Part shown: positions 2,044-15,873 of the stretch, piece after piece
Layout of the letters: each line of letters begins with the position of its first letter
Numbering within the stretch: position 1 is the first letter of the stretch
Program-made: the position numbers and the translations under genes
Source: a bacterium
GTDB lineage: Bacteria; UBA9089; CG2-30-40-21; SBAY01
Assembly (NCBI GenBank): GCA_040757115.1
Contig: JBFLYA010000063.1
Location: forward strand, 1-18,820
Reading direction: 5' to 3'
DNA length: 18,820 bases
The notes under the pieces: model-generated
Told to the model about the DNA's origin: nothing
What the model saw: only the letters and a program-made list of their open reading frames with translations
The model's database searches: none

Positions 2044-2175
2044 ACCTAACACTGAATTCAGCGGCGGCGGGGAGAATTGCCACTAAACTTTGTAAACATG
2101 ATTACCCCTTGAGATACTACAAAACTTTCAATCACGGCACAGTCTCCCGCCGTCCGCTGCAACGAATTGTTAGGT
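2044..2175 (-). other. attC: attC site 2 (long, about 132 bp)
   Basis: Read on the minus strand, R'' is ACCTAAC (2169-2175), followed by AATTCGTTGCAGCGGACGG, very close to classic attC left arms. The site ends with the partner arm and R' GTTAGGT (2044-2050). The arms CAGCGGACGGCGG-GAGA and CAGCGG-CGGCGGGGAGA pair with extrahelical bases on the minus-strand 5' side, giving the same leftward polarity as attC1. The loop is long (about 65 bp), like the long VCR-type sites. With attC1 it bounds one complete cassette of roughly 650 bp. Confidence 0.92.
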
Positions 2176-6729: not shown

Positions 6730-6744
6730 ATTACTTTTCTTTAA

Positions 6745-6758
6745 TAAAAAATCCCGGC
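6745..6758 (-). terminator. Terminator at the 5S 3' end
   Basis: On the minus strand the 5S closing strand GCCGGGA is followed directly by a run of T (6746-6751). The 5S terminal helix (TCCCGG/CCGGGA) plus this U-tract can act as the intrinsic terminator of the transcription unit. Confidence 0.6.
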
Positions 6759-6869
6759 AATGTCTTACTCTCCCACACCGTTACCAGTGCAGTACCATCA
6801 GCGTTAGAGGGCTTAACGACCGTATTCGGAATGGGAACGGGTGTTTCCCCTCTGCCATAATCACCGGGA
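6752..6869 (-). rRNA. rrf: 5S ribosomal RNA
   Basis: A 118-nt 5S rRNA. The terminal helix TCCCGG/CCGGGA closes at both ends. Conserved blocks include CCCGTTCCCATTCCGAATAC (loop B/C region), AAGCCCTCTAACGCTGATGG and GGTAACGGTGTGGGAGAGTA. It lies 2.77 kb downstream of the 23S 3' end on the same strand, separated by protein genes, instead of the usual 50-200 bp. Confidence 0.95.
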
Positions 6870-6962
6870 TTTTTTTTCAATTCTATCCTGTCTATAAATT
6901 ATAAAAGATATTATTCCAAAAAAAACTACAAGCATACACATTGGTATAAGAATGGCTTCCAT
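6861..6962 (-). CDS. Predicted 33-aa single-TM micro-protein overlapping the 5S start
   Basis: An ATG at 6962 opens 33 codons: a hydrophobic stretch (AILIPMCMLVVFFGIISFII, residues 3-22) followed by a basic tail (YRQDRIEKKSR), i.e. one membrane helix with a positively charged cytoplasmic end. The stop TGA lies inside the 5' end of the 5S (TCCCGGTGA), a 9-bp overlap. The start is 8 bp after the upstream gene stop, and GAAGGAG near 6976 is an SD at slightly long spacing. Consistent spacing and a coherent TM plus basic tail favour a real gene; length and overlap with an RNA gene argue for caution. Confidence 0.5.
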   Translation of the reverse strand: MEAILIPMCMLVVFFGIISFIIYRQDRIEKKSR

Positions 6963-6970
6963 TTTACCTT

Positions 6971-7168
6971 TTACACTCCTTCTTTATTAGGGAATATCAA
7001 TAATGCGCATCCAAATAATAAAATAAATACTATTCCACTCCCTACTAAAAGATACATATTAACTTTTCCTGAAATAATCTGTCCCAGGATAACAATTGAA
7101 AAGATATACTCAGCAACCTTTACAATATTTTCGGCTAAAAATTTTCTCTTTTCATTTGTAATTTTCAT
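6971..7168 (-). CDS. Small two-helix membrane protein
   Basis: A 65-aa protein with a charged N-terminus (MKITNEKRKFLAENIVKVAE) and two hydrophobic segments, about residues 21-34 (YIFSIVILGQIISG) and 39-59 (YLLVGSGIVFILLFGCALLI), joined by a short KVN loop. The charge pattern of the first part resembles small uncharacterised membrane proteins of the DUF6722 kind, but I am not sure of the family. The ATG overlaps the upstream lipoprotein stop by 4 bp (ATGA), so the pair is translationally coupled. Part of this gene is duplicated as a relic at 7838-7930. Confidence 0.7.
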   Translation of the reverse strand: MKITNEKRKFLAENIVKVAEYIFSIVILGQIISGKVNMYLLVGSGIVFILLFGCALLIFPNKEGV

Positions 7169-7410
7169 TTTATAGGTTTTTCTTTCGTCTCTATTTTCTC
7201 TTCTCTATCCTTGTCTAAAGCAAGTAATTCATTCTTTTTCTTCTCATACTCTTCTTTAGTAATTGTTCCTGCATCTACTAATTTTTTTAATTCTATAATT
7301 TCCTGGGCAATAGTAGGTTGATTATATTCCTTCGACAGAATAGAAATCTCACTTGCACATCCAGATAGTAATAACACAGATAAATTATAAATAACTATTC
7401 TCTTCCACAT
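7165..7410 (-). CDS. SHOCT-domain lipoprotein
   Basis: An 81-aa protein. A short signal peptide ends in the lipobox LLSGC, making C18 the lipid-modified residue (to be N-acylated by an Lnt such as the one at 16962). After a 15-residue linker comes a SHOCT-type domain, residues 35-68 (EIIELKKLVDAGTITKEEYE, then KKKNELL), with the signature L-x-x-L-x-x-x-G-x-I-x-x-E-E-Y/F. The tail is strongly charged. SHOCT domains are short oligomerisation modules. It follows the protease-like gene by 9 bp with no clear SD and overlaps the next gene by 4 bp. Serine after the lipobox linker start (CASE) gives no Asp+2 retention signal. Confidence 0.82.
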   Translation of the reverse strand: MWKRIVIYNLSVLLLSGCASEISILSKEYNQPTIAQEIIELKKLVDAGTITKEEYEKKKNELLALDKDREEKIETKEKPIK

Positions 7411-7419
7411 AATTAATTT

Positions 7420-7794
7420 CTAAAATTCAGTAAACTCTCTCCTTTTAAGCCCCGATAAATCAAGTGCGCCATCTTTCGGGCTCACGCTTATTTCCCATTC
7501 TTCCATAGTTAAGGCACCGATAAGTGCATCAATTTCTTTTCCATCCACTCTTCCTAAGTTATCAATTGGAACTACCTTTGTATCGAAAGCATATCCTTCC
7601 ATCTTGCCTTCCACAGCACAGTATTCCTTTACCTCTATTACTCTCCCTCCTAATGCTACTTTATAAGGTTCAGATAGCAGACGAATAGGAACACCTTCTA
7701 AGAAGTCTCTGATAATATAGGTATGCACAGAACCTGTATCAAATAGTGCATTTACCTTTCTCCCTTCTATTTCTATCTCTTTTACAATTCTCAT
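7420..7794 (-). CDS. Retropepsin-like (clan AA) aspartyl protease domain protein
   Basis: A 124-aa protein with the single-domain clan AA aspartic protease fold. NALFDTGSVHTYI (residues 15-27) contains the catalytic D19-T-G-S, and DALIGALTMEEWEI (89-102) is the second conserved psi-loop motif (the I-D-x-L-I-G type). The total length is what one half of a dimeric retropepsin needs, so the active enzyme would be a homodimer. There is no signal peptide or membrane segment. Such stand-alone domains occur in many bacteria with unknown substrates. SD-like AGGA lies 9 bp before the ATG. It is followed 9 bp later by the SHOCT lipoprotein gene, so the two are probably co-expressed. Confidence 0.85.
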   Translation of the reverse strand: MRIVKEIEIEGRKVNALFDTGSVHTYIIRDFLEGVPIRLLSEPYKVALGGRVIEVKEYCAVEGKMEGYAFDTKVVPIDNLGRVDGKEIDALIGALTMEEWEISVSPKDGALDLSGLKRREFTEF

Positions 7795-7837
7795 CTTAAT
7801 CTTCCTATTTTTAAAAATCTACATAGGATAACGATTT

Positions 7838-7930
7838 AAAAAATATATTCACCTACCTTTACAATATTTTCGGCTAAAAAATTCCTCTTTTCATTTTATA
7901 GATTTTTCTTTTGTCTCTCTTTGTTTGTCT
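7838..7930 (-). pseudogene. Relic copy of the lipoprotein/membrane-protein gene junction
   Basis: This stretch is a degenerate second copy of 7100-7200. The core CCTTTACAATATTTTCGGCT is identical at 7117-7136 and 7856-7875, and the similarity continues over the end of the lipoprotein gene (relic peptide KDKQRETKEKSIK before a TGA, against DREEKIETKEKPIK). An 11-bp deletion and an early TAG destroy the membrane-protein frame. It lies directly behind the 7942 gene, so an earlier copy of this gene pair stood here and was cut off. Confidence 0.75.
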
Positions 7931-7941
7931 TTTCTAAGACT

Positions 7942-8973
7942 TTATCCTTTTCCTAAACTTCCCATCCTTTTCCTGATTTCTCTAGGACAATAACATCCCA
8001 TTTCATTATCTTTTTGCCATCTTAATTCAACAAAATTAATTGTATTCTCCCTCGAAACCTTAAAAAGATCAAATATCGTATATGATTCTCTGAATGAATT
8101 TTTTGTGACTAATTCATATCCTACCCATTCTCTAACTGGTGACTTTGGAAAGGTATAATGTAGGGAGATGTTTTTTATCTCACAATCCATTCTCACACCA
8201 TCTTTTTCTATGATTATTGATCTTCTCTCTGTGACATCTTTTCTTTCCCCTCTTCTTCTATCTCTATCTCCTGGCAGAAAAACTCCTCTTCGAGCAATAA
8301 AACCCTCATATTCATCTTTCTTAATATTACTTGATAATAATCCTTTTAGACACATTTCATTTTCATCATTACTTTGAGGATATAACTTGAGTAATTTTAA
8401 GAATTCCTCCTGGGCTCTTTCAGGTATAATATCACACCTTCTTATAGAAGGAAAATAAGAATATAAATCAGGATACTTCTCATTAAAAATTTGATTAGAA
8501 TAGTAAATTTCAAAGAGTGGAGTATCAAGAGACAAACCAATTTTACCAATTTTCTTCGGCATCACTTTATATCCAATTTCCTTTCCCTCTAAGTTTGTAG
8601 CTTGCTTTGCTTCTAATGTTCCAAAAAATATTGTATAGAAATCTCTTTTTGTTAAAAGAAGAGTATCATTTATTTGGCCTTCCCTCTTTAAATATCCAAC
8701 ATATTGATACTCTAATAATGTGTCTAATAGAAACGCTTCAAATAGTGTAGTGTTTTGAGGAAGCATAATATTTTCACTTAAGAACTCTTTTTCAAAACTT
8801 TTGATTGGTCTATGCCGTTCAAATTTAAGACCACTAATAACAAAATTATTCACACTGTCTAAAATAGATTCACCATTTTCATCACTTTTCTTAAAAAGAA
8901 GACTTGCTTCCTTTCCTTTAAATTTATATCCTATCCTTTTTAATGAATTCTCTATTAACATCATCTCAGGCAT
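7942..8973 (-). CDS. Uncharacterised protein (343 aa)
   Basis: I do not recognise this protein. The frame is open from a TTG at 9060 (372 aa), but an ATG at 8973 preceded by GGGAGAGGGAG is the best-supported start. It is soluble, mixed alpha/beta and rich in Lys/Glu, with no signal peptide or membrane helix. In the TTG-start frame, residues about 100-140 are helical and aromatic (FEAFLLDTLLEYQYVGYLKR). A very basic block follows (GDRDRRRGERKDVTERRSI), then a beta-rich segment with CEIKNIS. The RRGER...C-x-I-x-N-I-S order faintly recalls a PilZ domain, but the spacing is not convincing. It follows the 99-aa gene and precedes the lipoprotein relic, within the 23S-5S spacer block. Confidence 0.7.
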   Translation of the reverse strand: MPEMMLIENSLKRIGYKFKGKEASLLFKKSDENGESILDSVNNFVISGLKFERHRPIKSFEKEFLSENIMLPQNTTLFEAFLLDTLLEYQYVGYLKREGQINDTLLLTKRDFYTIFFGTLEAKQATNLEGKEIGYKVMPKKIGKIGLSLDTPLFEIYYSNQIFNEKYPDLYSYFPSIRRCDIIPERAQEEFLKLLKLYPQSNDENEMCLKGLLSSNIKKDEYEGFIARRGVFLPGDRDRRRGERKDVTERRSIIIEKDGVRMDCEIKNISLHYTFPKSPVREWVGYELVTKNSFRESYTIFDLFKVSRENTINFVELRWQKDNEMGCYCPREIRKRMGSLGKG

Positions 8974-9046
8974 AATATTACTCCCTCTCCCTTTTTGTAA
9001 AAAAATCTCACTTTCTCTTTTTGTTGCCTGATATAAAGTATATTTA

Positions 9047-9346
9047 CTATCTTCTTTCAAGCATCGTTCTAAATTCTCTTAAGTTTCTTTTGGGTTCTTC
9101 TCCTAAAATTTCTTCTTCTTCCCATAGAGAATTAAAAAACTCCCACGCTTCTTCATATAACATTCTTTCTGCCACTTCCTTTGTCTTTTCTATATTTGGA
9201 TTTATTTTCCCAATGCCATAAAACTTTTTCAACCCTTCAAAATATGCAAATATCATTTCCTCTTCTTGTACAAACTTTATTCTCTTTTTCCATTTTTCAC
9301 CTATCTTTCTTAGAAATTCTCTTTTAAGAAGCATATCTTCAGGCAT
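9047..9346 (-). CDS. Uncharacterised 99-aa protein
   Basis: I do not recognise this protein. It is predicted helical and strongly charged, with a basic N-terminal third (LLKREFLRKIGEKWKKRIKF) and an acidic aromatic stretch (YEEAWEFFNSLWEEEEILGE) near residues 64-83. There is no membrane segment. The SD AGGAGGGGG is excellent, 10 bp upstream of the ATG at 9346, and a hairpin lies just before it (9365-9397). It is the first protein gene after the 23S and probably starts the block read on towards the 5S. No independent promoter is visible in the 300 bp upstream, so read-through from the rRNA operon is the simplest explanation. Confidence 0.68.
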   Translation of the reverse strand: MPEDMLLKREFLRKIGEKWKKRIKFVQEEEMIFAYFEGLKKFYGIGKINPNIEKTKEVAERMLYEEAWEFFNSLWEEEEILGEEPKRNLREFRTMLERR

Positions 9347-9364
9347 TTTAATTATCCCCCTCCT

Positions 9365-9397
9365 AAAGCATCCTTCCCCTTCAAAATTAGATGCTTT
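9365..9397. promoter_or_regulatory. Hairpin beside the SD of the 99-aa gene
   Basis: AAAGCATC (9365-9372) and GATGCTTT (9390-9397) form a perfect 8-bp stem with a 17-nt loop. On the + strand it is followed by T's like a terminator, but no + strand gene ends here. On the minus strand it sits right upstream of the strong SD at 9346 and could influence translation or mRNA processing. Confidence 0.5.
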
Positions 9398-9426
9398 TTT
9401 AACTTCAACTATAAGATAAATTTATT

Positions 9427-9585
9427 TTTTACTTATAGCGGTTATTAAGTAAAAGCGTTCCTGTTTTATGGATTATGAATTTAGGATTTGAGATTACAGT
9501 CTTCAATCCTCAATTCTTTTACCTTGTAATTCTCTATTCTTTATCTTTAATCCGTAATTCTTAAATTCGTAATTTATCAATTTGA
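9427..9585. repeat. Inverted repeats between the 23S and the first spacer gene
   Basis: These 300 bp past the 23S hold no gene. A perfect stem TTTTACTT (9427-9434) / AAGTAAAA (9447-9454) has a 12-nt loop. A looser palindrome of GATTATGAATTTAGGATT-type words lies at about 9460-9485, with inverted partners at about 9550-9580. No clear minus-strand promoter was found. Confidence 0.5.
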
Positions 9586-10138
9586 TTTTTGGTATATTAT
9601 ACTTTGAATAGTTACCAAAAAAGAAACAACTTAAAGTAGCACGGTCAAGTCGCACGACTTATTAGTACTGCTCAGCTCCCGATTGTCTCGAAGTTACTTA
9701 ATCATCCGAAGATAATCTTGTTTCTTTTCAACAATCAGGGTTCAATAGATTACTCTACTTACACTTGCAGCCTATCAACCTGGTCATCTCCCAGGAGTCT
9801 TCAGGTGGTCTTAAGAAGTCTAAAGACCTAACTACTTGGGAATTCTCTTGCGAGAATTTCTTTTCGAAAGATTTTTAGAAGCATCAAAAGATCCTAACAG
9901 ATAACTCAAAGAGAAATCTGTCCGAGATATCTAATCTTGGGGTGGGTTTCCTGCTTAGATGCTTTCAGCAGTTATCCCTTCCGAACATAGCTACCCAGCA
10001 ATGCCACTGGCATGACAACTGGTACACTAGCGGTTCGTCCACTCCGGTCCTCTCGTACTAGGAGTAGCACCCCTCAAATATCTTGCGCCCGCAACAGATA
10101 GGGACCGAACTGTCTCACGACGTTCTAAACCCAGCTCA

Positions 10139-10233
<95 letters not shown>

Positions 10234-10251
10234 ATATGGACTCTTGGGCAA

Positions 10252-10286
<35 letters not shown>

Positions 10287-10732
10287 ATAAGCGACGACCC
10301 TTCCACACAGAATCGCCGGATCATTAAGCCCTGCTTTCACATCTGCTTGACTTGTAGGTCTTGCAGTTAAGCTTCCTTGTGCCTTTATACTCTCCATGCG
10401 ATTGCCAAACGCATTGAGGAAGCCTTGGGACGCCTCCGTTACTTTTTAGGAGGCAACCGCCCCAGTTAAACTACCCGCCTGACATTGTCCCTCAACTGGA
10501 TTCACAGTCGTAGGTTAGAATCTAAATATAATAAGGGTGGTATCCCAAGGTTGACTCCACGCAGACTAACGCCCACGCTTCAAAGTCTCCCACCTATCCT
10601 GTACATACTATACCCAGATCCAATGTCAAGTTATAGTAAAGGTTCACGGGGTCTTTCCGTCTAGTTGCGGGTAACTTGCATCTTCGCAAATACTACAATT
10701 TCGCCGAGCCCCTCGTTGAGACAGCGCCCAAA

Positions 10733-10817
<85 letters not shown>

Positions 10818-10840
10818 TGGGGCTTCAGTTCAAAGCTTTA

Positions 10841-10920
10841 GAAAACAGGTAATTTAGTAATTAAGTGATTTCATGATAAGTCACTTCCTCACTTTTTCAC
10901 TTCCTCACTCTATTCTCCTG
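10841..10920 (-). other. 23S insertion 1 (helix 68 region)
   Basis: Between conserved 23S blocks (complement of CAAAGCTT and of CCTTAACC) lie about 80 nt of extra sequence. On the minus strand it contains GTGAGGAAGTGA twice and a stem AAGTGA/TCACTT. By position it falls in the helix 68 region. It may be excised as an intervening sequence or stay as an expansion. Confidence 0.7.
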
Positions 10921-10984
10921 ACCTCTCTCCTTAACCGTCCAGCACCGAGCAGGCGTCAGACCCTATACATCGTCTTACAACTTA

Positions 10985-11016
<32 letters not shown>

Positions 11017-11618
11017 TGGGCCATTTCTCTGCGACCTTTTCATGCTCAAAGAGTAAATCTTTTTACACTACTCAGGCACTCCTTTTCCCGAAGTTACGGA
11101 GTTAGATTGCCGAGTTCCTTAACGAGGGTTCTCTCGAGCGCCTTAGGATTCTCACCTCGCCTACCTGTGTCGGTTTTAGTACGGACACCTTCTAACCTGA
11201 CTAGAGGCTTTTCTTGGCAGTGTGGGGTCGGTCAGTTCCCGGAAATAAATTTCCAGTCCCCGATTACCTCTTGAGGTTTAATAACAGCTCGGATTTGCCA
11301 GAGTTGTCCCTCTACAGGCTTAGACAGTCACTTCCAATCGACTGATGACCTACCCTTCTGCGTCACCCCATCGCTCATAACGGTTAAAAGATGGTATCGG
11401 AATATTAACCGATTGCCCATCGCCTACGCTTTTCAGCCTCAACTTAGGATCCGACTTACCCTGGGCGGATTAACCTTCCCAAGGAAACCTTAGGCTTTCG
11501 GCGAACGGGTTTCTCACCCGTTTTTTCGCTACTTATACCGGCATCCTCACTTCCAGTTCGTCCAGCAGTCCTCACGGTCTGCCTTCACTCTACAATGGAA
11601 CGCTCCCCTACCATACAT

Positions 11619-11703
11619 AAGTTTATTGAATTTTTGAGTTAATTGCGTTTGTTGAGTTTTTCAACTCTACAAACTCTCTAAACTCTATGAACTCTATAAA
11701 CTT
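11619..11703 (-). other. 23S insertion 2 (helix 45 region)
   Basis: An 85-nt insertion closed by the perfect stem AAGTTTAT / ATAAACTT. On the minus strand the 5' arm is four diverged copies of an 8-9-nt unit (TAGAGTTCA, TAGAGTTTA, GAGAGTTTG, TAGAGTTG), and the tip is GAGTTG-AAAAA-CTCAAC. Its location, just after the conserved GGTAGGGGAGCG block, matches the helix 45 site where intervening sequences are known in other bacteria. Confidence 0.78.
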
Positions 11704-11761
11704 TTCTGTATCCATAGCTTCGGTGATGAGCTTAAGCCCCGTTATATTGTCAGCGCAGACA

Positions 11762-11795
<34 letters not shown>

Positions 11796-12079
11796 TGATG
11801 GCTGCCTCTAAGCCAACATCCTGGCTGTTTTTGTATCTCCACATCTTTTGCCACTTAGCTCATACTTAGGGACCTCAGCTGATGGTCTGGTTTCTTTTCC
11901 TTTTGACTATGGGGCTTATCCCCCATAGACTCACTCCCATAATACCAGTAACAGCATTCGGAGTTTGATTGAGTTTGGTAACCTGGAGGGGTCCCATAGC
12001 CCATTCAGAGCTCTACCGCCATTACTTACTTTATGAGGCTGTCCCTAAAGACATTTCGGGGAGAACCAGCTATCACTGA

Positions 12080-12117
<38 letters not shown>

Positions 12118-12772
12118 AAGTCTTTTCAACGACCGCAGGTTCGGACCTCCACGTGTGGTCAAACACGCTTCATCCTGGCCATAGATAGATCACTCAGCTT
12201 CGGGTCTACTAAATGCTACTAATAAATCGCCCTATTCAGACTTGCTTTCGCTACGGCTACATGGTTTTTCCCACTTAACCTTGCAACACTTAGTAACTCG
12301 CCGGTTCATTATACAAAAGGCACGCAGTCAGGCATTTCAGGATTAGATAATGGTTACTTAATCTTAGTTACCCAAGAGCTTTCTCCAAAATCCAATTTTA
12401 AACCTGCCATAGCCCTTCCACAGCTTGTAGGTATACGGTTTCAGGTACTATTTCATCCTCCTTCTGGAGTACTTTTCACCTTTCCCTCACGGTACTTGTC
12501 CACTATCGGTTGTTAGAGAGTATTTAGCCTTAGGAGGTGGTCCTCCCAAATTCCAACAGGATTTCCCGTGTCCCGTTGTACTCAGGAACTTAAACGCAGG
12601 AAGTTTATACTATTTCGCTTACAGGGTTATCACCTTCTCTGACTACTTTTTCCAAAGTGATTCAGCTATAGTATAAATTTTTGACTTCCCGGGTGCTACA
12701 ATATACCTCTACCCCATTTAAGTCCTCTTACCCCTAAACTTGCAAAGTAGTATAGACTTTAACGCAAATTCA

Positions 12773-12815
<43 letters not shown>

Positions 12816-12820
12816 GAACA

Positions 12821-12890
12821 TAATCATTTATTTAGTCTGTTGTTAAAAAGACAGAGTCTTAAAAACACATAACTAAATTTTTAATGATTA
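12821..12890 (-). other. 23S insertion 3 (5' domain)
   Basis: About 70 extra nt about 230-300 nt from the 23S 5' end. TAATCAT (12821-12827) pairs with ATGATTA (12884-12890), and an inner TTTAGT/ACTAAA stem continues it. It replaces a short loop between the conserved GAGGAAAAGAAA and GATTCCGTCAGTAGCGGCG blocks. Confidence 0.68.
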
Positions 12891-13170
12891 ATTTTTTCTT
12901 TCTTTTCCTCAGGGTACTGAGATGTTTCACTTCCCCTGGTTTTCTCTTAGACTCTATGTATTCAAGTCTAAGTGATGAAGCATGACCTTCACCAGGTTTT
13001 CCCATTTGGAGATCCCCGGATCAAAGTTTATTTGCAACTCCCCGAGGCTTATCGCAGCTTATCACGTCCTTCATCGTCTTCTAACACCAAGGCATCCACC
13101 GTAGACCCTTAGTAACTTGACCATGCCACTTTAAGTTGATTCTTTTTTAAGATGCTCAAGTTTCCCATAT

Positions 13171-13187
13171 TTAATTATCAAAGAGCG
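13171..13187 (-). promoter_or_regulatory. boxA-like antitermination element before the 23S
   Basis: On the minus strand CGCTCTTTGATAATTAA closely matches the bacterial rRNA boxA (TGCTCTTTAACAAT type) and lies about 50 nt before the 23S 5' end. This is where Nus factors would be recruited to keep RNA polymerase going through the 23S. No comparable boxA was found in the 16S leader. Confidence 0.65.
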
Positions 13188-13258: not shown

Positions 13259-13456
13259 CTAACTATAATGTGAACAACCAATATATTTAACTAAAAATTT
13301 ACCTTCTTTACATTGAATCATAACTTTTATATTTTTTAAACACTTCCAACACCATATTTCTGTTTCTTTTATGTCTCCTTCTTTGAAAATTTTAGAATCT
13401 ATTATTACTTCACTCGACTTAGAAACTTTTTCTCTTTTTATATTTACTTTTAACAA
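13259..13456 (-). CDS. Small Cys-containing protein in the 16S-23S spacer
   Basis: A 65-aa frame with a TTG start (13454-13456) behind a very strong SD, GGGAGGT. The N-terminus is basic; the middle reads IIDSKIFKEGDIKETEIW, followed by CWKC and later single Cys in MIQCKEGKF and IGCSHYS, a possible zinc-binding set (CxxC...C...CxH). I do not recognise the family. It lies 48 bp after the 53-aa gene and 137 bp before the 23S. The two proteins share a common pattern (ID..KI.KEG, then CKE-GK), so they may be ancient tandem duplicates. It would be transcribed with the rRNA. Confidence 0.6.
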   Translation of the reverse strand: MLKVNIKREKVSKSSEVIIDSKIFKEGDIKETEIWCWKCLKNIKVMIQCKEGKFLVKYIGCSHYS

Positions 13457-13504: not shown

Positions 13505-13666
13505 TCATTCTTTCCTCTGTTGACTTATTGGAAATATTTTTAATTTACCTTCTTCCTTACAAACAGAAAATTTTTTTTTATTTAGAGCTACAATTTCGCA
13601 CATTCCTTCCTTTATTTTTTCTGGATCAATTTCCAAAACTCTTTCTTTTTTTTGTTTATTTTCCAT
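13505..13666 (-). CDS. Small 53-aa protein in the 16S-23S spacer
   Basis: An ATG at 13664-13666 follows AGAGGTG at good spacing and opens 53 codons to a TGA at 13505. The protein is Lys/Glu-rich: MENKQKKERVLEIDPEKIKE, then GMCEIVALNKKKFSVCKEEG and a hydrophobic KLKIFPI end. It has two Cys and no membrane segment. Its SD starts about 20 bp from tRNA-Ala, on the same strand, so its mRNA must be cut from the rRNA precursor when the tRNA is processed. No family recognised. The strong SD and the similarity to the next protein are the main support. Confidence 0.58.
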   Translation of the reverse strand: MENKQKKERVLEIDPEKIKEGMCEIVALNKKKFSVCKEEGKLKIFPISQQRKE

Positions 13667-13690: not shown

Positions 13691-13766
13691 TGGTGGAGAT
13701 GAGCGGGGTTGAACCGCTGGCCTCCTGGTTGCAAACCAGGCGCTCTCCCAACTGAGCTACATCCCC
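13691..13766 (-). tRNA. tRNA-Ala (TGC)
   Basis: A 76-nt tRNA with encoded CCA. The acceptor GGGGATG pairs with CATCTCC. D arm GTAGCTCAGTTGGGAGAGC, anticodon arm CCTGGTTTGCAACCAGG with anticodon TGC, T arm AGCGGTTCAACCCCGCT. It sits at the usual 16S-23S spacer place. Confidence 0.97.
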
Positions 13767-13814: not shown

Positions 13815-13891
13815 TGGTGGGCCTATGTGGTCTCGAACCACAGACCTTACGCTTATCAGGCGTACGCTCTAACCACCTGAGCTATAGGCCC
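13815..13891 (-). tRNA. tRNA-Ile (GAT)
   Basis: A 77-nt tRNA with encoded CCA. The acceptor GGGCCTA pairs with TAGGCCC. Anticodon loop CTGATAA with anticodon GAT, T arm TGTGGTTCGAGACCACA. It precedes tRNA-Ala in the classical spacer order Ile-Ala. Confidence 0.97.
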
Positions 13892-15768
<1,877 letters not shown>

Positions 15769-15804: not shown

Positions 15805-15817
15805 AACTCCTATTCAG
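15805..15817 (-). other. 5' half of the 16S processing stem
   Basis: In the rRNA leader CTGAATAGGAGTT (minus strand) is exactly complementary to the sequence 14101-14113 beyond the 16S 3' end. Pairing extends with mismatches on the outer side (TTCCTTGAAAA against CTTTGAGGGA). This is the expected RNase III substrate that brings both 16S ends together. Confidence 0.8.
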
Positions 15818-15844
15818 TTTTCAAGGAACATTCCTCTGATTATA

Positions 15845-15873
15845 AGTATAACACTTCGTCTGTTTTTTGTCAA
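15845..15873 (-). promoter_or_regulatory. rRNA operon promoter
   Basis: On the minus strand TTGACA (15868-15873), a 17-bp spacer and TATACT (15845-15850) give a near-perfect housekeeping promoter about 75 bp before the 16S. The -35 box is about 20 bp downstream of the stop of the RmlD-like gene, so the two units are closely packed. Confidence 0.85.

Follow-up and report, generated by a model that had tools for sequence, protein, structure and literature searches.

Bacterial rRNA operons normally carry no protein genes, and the two kinds of transcript are usually handled differently, rRNA being made with antitermination and without translation and mRNA by transcription coupled to translation. 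The locus analyzed here raises the question of whether both can share one transcript: its 5S rRNA gene is set apart from the 23S rRNA gene by a block of protein genes. The window is the whole of an 18,820-nt contig (JBFLYA010000063.1; C63 of genome G000) from a 4.3-Mb MAG in 462 contigs, which is estimated by the tool used to be 99.87% complete and 1.4% contaminated. Its relatives place this uncultured bacterium in candidate phylum Desantisbacteria. A natural hybrid recurring in a phylum would show how rRNA and mRNA share one transcript and would give proteins direct growth-rate-coupled expression. It would also raise the question of how 5S rRNA matures when translation ends on its initial nucleotides.

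Protein Genes among the rRNA Genes

The rRNA genes identified by cmscan lie on the minus strand in the order 16S, tRNA-Ile, tRNA-Ala, 23S, and 5S. In the direction of transcription, the features are as follows.

15845–15873, minus: candidate rRNA promoter TTGACA-17-TATACT with extended −10 (TG), 11/12 matches
15816–15829, minus: boxA-like antitermination site in the 16S leader (GTTCCTTGAAAACT), exact pattern match
14159–15768, minus: 16S rRNA (cmscan, 1560 bits)
13815–13891, minus: tRNA-Ile (GAT) (cmscan match 13891–13818)
13691–13766, minus: tRNA-Ala (TGC) (cmscan match 13766–13694)
13505–13666, minus: 53-aa ORF between tRNA-Ala and 23S, GAGGTG ribosome-binding site, conserved in G001
13259–13456, minus: 65-aa Cys-rich ORF between tRNA-Ala and 23S, relatives in G001 and G013
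13173–13186, minus: boxA-like site upstream of 23S (GCTCTTTGATAATT), pattern match
13115–13148, minus: 5′ arm of the 23S processing stem, pairing with 9650–9617 (duplex −50.6 kcal/mol)
9709–13122, minus: 23S rRNA (cmscan, 2700 bits over 3414 nt)
9617–9650, minus: 3′ arm of the 23S processing stem, pairing with the 5′ arm
9047–9346, minus: P0002, 99 aa, opening the block, ribosome-binding site AGGAGG (ORF and homologues)
7942–9060, minus: P0001, protein without known function, 372 aa as listed (ORF and homologues)
7825–7922, minus: degenerate duplicate of the lipoprotein tail and memb1 start (89–91% identity)
7420–7794, minus: retropepsin-like aspartyl protease, 124 aa, LFDTGS motif (PF13650, E = 2.9e-5, above cut-off)
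7165–7410, minus: SHOCT-domain lipoprotein, 81 aa (domain match, E = 3e-8)
6971–7168, minus: memb1, small membrane protein, 65 aa (homologue at the equivalent place in G002)
6861–6962, minus: membrane microprotein, 33 aa, partner of memb1 (homologues beside the partner gene)
6752–6868, minus: 5S rRNA (cmscan)
6743–6751, minus: T-run directly past the 5S terminal helix (sequence reading; equal layout in relatives)

Between the cmscan ends of 23S and 5S there are 2840 nt, holding six ORFs on the same strand as the rRNA. The initial annotation, made from the sequence alone, had already seen that protein genes separate the 5S from the 23S, and the five that it listed are all real ORFs. The first gene begins at 9346, past an AT-rich spacer of ~300 nt, and two further ORFs between tRNA-Ala and 23S (13666–13505 and 13456–13259) had initially been missed. 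The assembly contains a single 23S and a single 5S gene, which answers its question of whether other 5S genes exist in the genome.

The order and common strand of 16S, tRNA, 23S, and 5S are those of a linked operon. The distance from the 16S end (14159) to the 23S start (13122) is ~1.04 kb, below the 1.5 kb usually taken as the threshold for unlinked rRNA genes. What departs from a linked operon is the 23S–5S spacer, which is short elsewhere: among 20 5S loci from other phyla, three show no 23S end within the flank examined, and in all 17 loci with a visible one the 23S ends at most 315 nt from the 5S. Being located beyond the 23S processing stem, the block differs from an intervening sequence (IVS/S23p) of the 23S. 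Judging from this stem, the mature 23S 3′ end is probably nearer to 9650 than the cmscan boundary indicates. The 23S gene itself (9709–13122) exceeds the Rfam model by ~490 nt and shows AT-rich internal insertions near 10845–10915, 11620–11700, and 12830–12900.

Transcription Signals

Promoters were searched with a scan limited to sigma70-like consensus sites with 9/12 matches or better. At this threshold, the minus strand shows no site in the spacers at 9650–9347 and 7168–6869. Two matches of 10/12 lie within the coding regions of the block, at 7742–7714 and 9001–8972. Promoter-like sites number 41, versus 31.7 ± 6.2 in shuffles, a density that is not clearly higher. Hence, the proposal that neither the block nor the 5S has a promoter of its own holds for the two spacers and is weakened by the matches inside genes. 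No terminator-like hairpin was found by scanning the minus strand from 23S to 5S, so that the terminator right after the 23S, which would have spoken against read-through, is not seen there. The T-run past the 5S terminal helix, noted initially as a terminator, has the same place in the relatives and is likely an intrinsic terminator. As far as a sigma70-consensus scan extends, and with promoter-like matches inside genes, the sequence thus agrees with a single boxA-containing promoter and no internal terminator.

The two kinds of genes meet at the 3′ end of the block. The TGA stop codon of the microprotein lies inside the 5S gene, the ORF overlapping the cmscan 5S start by 8 nt; any mRNA covering the microprotein gene must therefore run into the 5S. 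Promoter, boxA, lack of a terminator, and this stop codon all fit the single unit of ~9 kb suggested by the initial annotation, in which co-transcription is a prediction from sequence.

Genes in the Spacers

The first two genes of the block, P0002 and P0001, match no family in the Pfam and NCBIfam scans. Profile searches against PDB gave no match for P0001 and a nonsignificant best hit for P0002 (E = 0.13), and an AlphaFold model of P0001 built from three sequences was unusable (mean pLDDT 36). The two genes have homologues forming the same adjacent pair in G014, where they are behind flagellar genes, and in G016; for P0001 the identities are 33% and 31%, respectively. The homologues suggest that P0001 likely starts at ATG 8973 (343 aa) and not at TTG 9060, and a GGAGAGGGAG-type ribosome-binding site precedes this ATG. 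The protease is under constraint (dN/dS ~0.13 versus the copy in G008). The only strong relative of the SHOCT lipoprotein among the 19 genomes is a protein of G013, which is also encoded behind a 23S. For memb1, the match with Pfam DUF6722 is below the cut-off. The microprotein, previously listed as probable, is substantiated by homologues adjoining the same partner gene, memb1, in G002 and G007, and the pair is found elsewhere in the phylum, e.g., behind nuo-type genes in G007. Defence matches were negligible in a PADLOC scan of the block proteins.

Of the two ORFs between tRNA-Ala and 23S, the one encoding 65 aa is 97% identical in G001 and has a relative with 73% identity in G013, which belongs to another family of the phylum. 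Between G000 and G001, the two ORFs together (P0004 and P0005) differ by 7 changes at 60 synonymous sites and by 4 changes at 294 nonsynonymous sites (p = 5.5e-4). This synonymous excess indicates purifying selection, as expected for translated genes.

Distribution in Desantisbacteria

A parallel is found in G002, a genome of the same family, where tRNA-Ile and tRNA-Ala are followed by a PrcB-like protein, a subtilase, a second tRNA-Ala, and 23S, and then by the memb1–microprotein pair, 5S, three proteins, and a second 5S. Its 23S processing stem has a stability of −47.0 kcal/mol. Its microprotein ORF ends ~200 nt upstream of the 5S, and hence the 8-nt overlap belongs to the genus of the window. 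Within this genus, the 23S of the sister species G001 precedes six or more genes that run in its direction and form a set different from that of the window: AAA ATPase, PP2C, and PIN (Pfam), FHA and Uma2-like (by eye), and others. Its 5S lies on a separate contig, which breaks 119 nt upstream of the gene, and the sequence there is 99% identical to the window. The microprotein–5S junction is conserved in G001, and the microprotein–5S–nadK side is collinear with it at 95–99% identity.

In another family, G008 and G013 share a 59-aa ORF behind the 23S that is under purifying selection (p = 1.3e-4), followed in G013 by a SHOCT lipoprotein. Directly upstream of the 23S there are five same-strand genes in G008 and at least one in G014, on contigs without 16S, and in G018 two genes on the strand of the 5S come immediately after it. 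Comparison with relatives, which the initial annotation had recommended for the ancestral 23S–5S spacing, gives a divided picture. Protein genes are found behind the 23S in at least 3 of the 6 Desantisbacteria genera with a readable 23S end, a count in which G001 and G013 show no 5S on the contig of their 23S. The 23S–5S spacers of G006, G007, G009, G010, and G014 are ordinary and free of cargo, so the habit is not universal in the phylum. Where cargo is present, its orientation is uniform: by hand count in seven Desantisbacteria genomes, 33/33 cargo ORFs are co-directional with the rRNA, versus 83% of neighbouring gene pairs on other contigs of the phylum (chance ~0.002 if genes are independent).

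Some additional features of these loci were observed. The 23S genes of G002 (L032, G002:C266, 5593–6859) and G001 (L065, L066) have group I intron matches and LAGLIDADG-type ORFs, with two such ORFs and one intron match in G002. In G001, overlapping contigs differ at one 23S site, where one has a short intron and the other a long one, so that this genome likely holds two or more alleles or copies. On the G008 contig L036 (G008:C99), a weak tRNA (592–664, 31 bits) resembling the tRNA-Ala of the window lies behind the 5S, and no tRNA or 16S was found upstream of the 23S. The record DYDG01000047.1 (L078), titled Marinifilum sp., has a Desantisbacteria-type rRNA operon, and its title looks wrong.

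A Probable Hybrid of rRNA and mRNA

The spacer proteins are probably made from the rRNA transcript, since the only rRNA operon detected carries these genes and relatives carry others in the same gaps. RNA polymerase would start at the 16S promoter, acquire processivity by boxA/Nus antitermination, read through 16S, the tRNAs, the two small ORFs, 23S, the six protein genes, and 5S, and stop at the 5S hairpin and T-run. Pairing of the 23S flanks in the observed stem would allow an RNase III–type cut to free the 23S. The 3′ remainder would then be a polycistronic mRNA ending in 5S, whose own ribosome-binding sites would serve its translation and whose trimming would free the 5S. The protein genes would be real cargo captured into rRNA spacers, with at least some capture events leaving duplicated neighbouring sequence, and the likely benefit would be strong, growth-linked expression of cargo, much of which consists of small membrane or exported proteins. 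We assign to this explanation as a whole, captured cargo included, a probability of roughly 0.7.

The most serious competitor is a block transcribed as an operon of its own, from a promoter after or inside the 23S, with the rRNA operon ending past the 23S and the 5S transcribed either from its own promoter or with the block. The promoter-like sites at 9001–8972 and 7742–7714 could serve such an operon, and there is a precedent for distance in Thermoplasma, where 23S and 5S lie 6 kb apart and the rRNA operon has been termed unlinked (PMC7761764). However, the scans show no terminator after the 23S and no promoter-like site in either the 23S–P0002 spacer or the sequence just before the 5S, and the microprotein stop falls inside the 5S; a separate downstream operon would also leave the protein genes upstream of the 23S unexplained. 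We consider this arrangement unlikely.

The junction between 23S and P0002 is seen in this contig only, G001 having other genes there. This counts against the hybrid operon and would suit an assembly chimera, in which the block was mistakenly joined to rRNA genes, as would the fragmentation of the MAG (462 contigs) and the repeat-prone nature of rRNA genes. The rRNA regions of MAGs are prone to assembly problems, and the G001 contigs break inside the 23S and upstream of the 5S. Yet the microprotein–5S–nadK side is collinear with G001, memb1 and the microprotein lie between 23S and 5S in the separate assembly of G002, and protein genes stand directly against rRNA genes in other independent assemblies. 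As the pair occupies this position in another genus and the microprotein–5S junction recurs in a sister species, the layout is unlikely to have arisen in assembly, and a chimera appears very improbable. Slimmer still are the odds of passive decay, with the spacer a tolerated insertion hotspot whose genes are junk or silent. The variation of cargo between genera and the degeneracy of one duplicated gene start would fit it, but the spacer ORFs are under purifying selection, their ribosome-binding sites are intact, and the orientation of the cargo is uniform.

Comparison with Known Arrangements

The hybrid operon favoured here shares with the standard linked bacterial rRNA operon its gene order, orientation, leader boxA, 23S stem, and terminal 5S with T-run, and differs from it by the 2.8-kb 23S–5S gap with six protein genes and by the two ORFs in the 16S–23S spacer. 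Unlinked or broken rRNA operons, as in Thermoplasma and in Buchnera, whose 16S operon holds several ORFs (PMC7761764), also have unusually spaced rRNA genes and ORFs near or within the unit. Unlike these, the rRNA genes of the window all share a strand and keep their usual order, with same-strand genes in the gap and only ~1 kb between 16S and 23S. Protein genes inside an rRNA operon have been engineered in Pseudomonas putida, where gene clusters inserted in rrn operons yield product, with expression that depends on the rrn promoter and varies with the distance to it (PMC6505042). There, transposons were used in the laboratory to place the genes in one of the seven operons, whereas the arrangement of the window is of natural origin, is conserved in part, and occupies the only operon detected. 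Proteins are also encoded within rRNA precursors by 23S intervening sequences, which encode S23p, and by rRNA introns, which carry homing endonucleases (PMC4990558, PMC11270868), but these sit inside the rRNA genes, whereas the genes of the window sit in the spacers between them.

Hybrid units thus have precedents in Buchnera and in engineered P. putida. In a search of the open-access literature, no natural bacterial case of protein genes between 23S and 5S was found described, nor was the recurrence across a phylum together with the duplication of RNA genes around the cargo.

Possible Routes of Cargo Arrival

Duplications offer a clue to how these genes entered. In G002 the cargo is bracketed by duplicated tRNA-Ala (112 nt, 88%) and 5S (142 nt, 96%), and in the window a duplication of 110 nt (lipoprotein tail and memb1 start) brackets the protease–lipoprotein part of the block. 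Both tandem duplication and Campbell-type recombination of a circle are compatible with these duplications, and the duplication of RNA genes around cargo points to a simple way in which genes could be captured. The memb1–microprotein pair looks like the older occupant in the family of the window, and P0002–P0001 and the protease–lipoprotein part look like later additions. One may tentatively go further, at somewhat less than even odds, and regard the rRNA operon of Desantisbacteria as a recurrent landing site. Co-directional, promoterless modules would enter every spacer (16S–23S, 23S–5S, and after 5S) by duplication of the adjacent RNA gene, which would keep the rRNA set intact. Production of envelope and exported proteins would thereby follow rRNA synthesis, in one case through an mRNA ending inside the 5S.

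Known mobile elements were also considered. No recombinase or transposase of the kind that a transposon or integrative element would bring was found among the block proteins in the Pfam, NCBIfam, and PADLOC scans. Integron cassettes were rejected as a source of the block, the only attC-like pair in the window (2044–2175) being outside it. This pair belongs to a degenerate integron on the same contig, in which an integron integrase (TIGR02249; 201–1387, plus strand), split into two ORFs by ~100 nt, lies ahead of a cassette that comprises a DUF3795 gene and the attC-like site.

The retropepsin family is multicopy. One copy is between rplJ and rplL in G000 (L071:5138–5515, G000:C12; gene names by eye), and a near-identical match leads one to expect the same arrangement in G001. 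Other copies are behind rplM–rpsI in G002 (L087, G002:C126) and behind rplY–pth in G008 (L081, G008:C10), names again by eye, between pilin genes (L090), and behind nuoA–nuoB (L100). The entry of this gene into ribosomal-protein operons is a post hoc pattern, to be taken as a lead. A genome of another phylum (L070, G019:C73, 12689–13071) contains a retropepsin gene with 75% DNA identity to that of the window, which suggests horizontal transfer.
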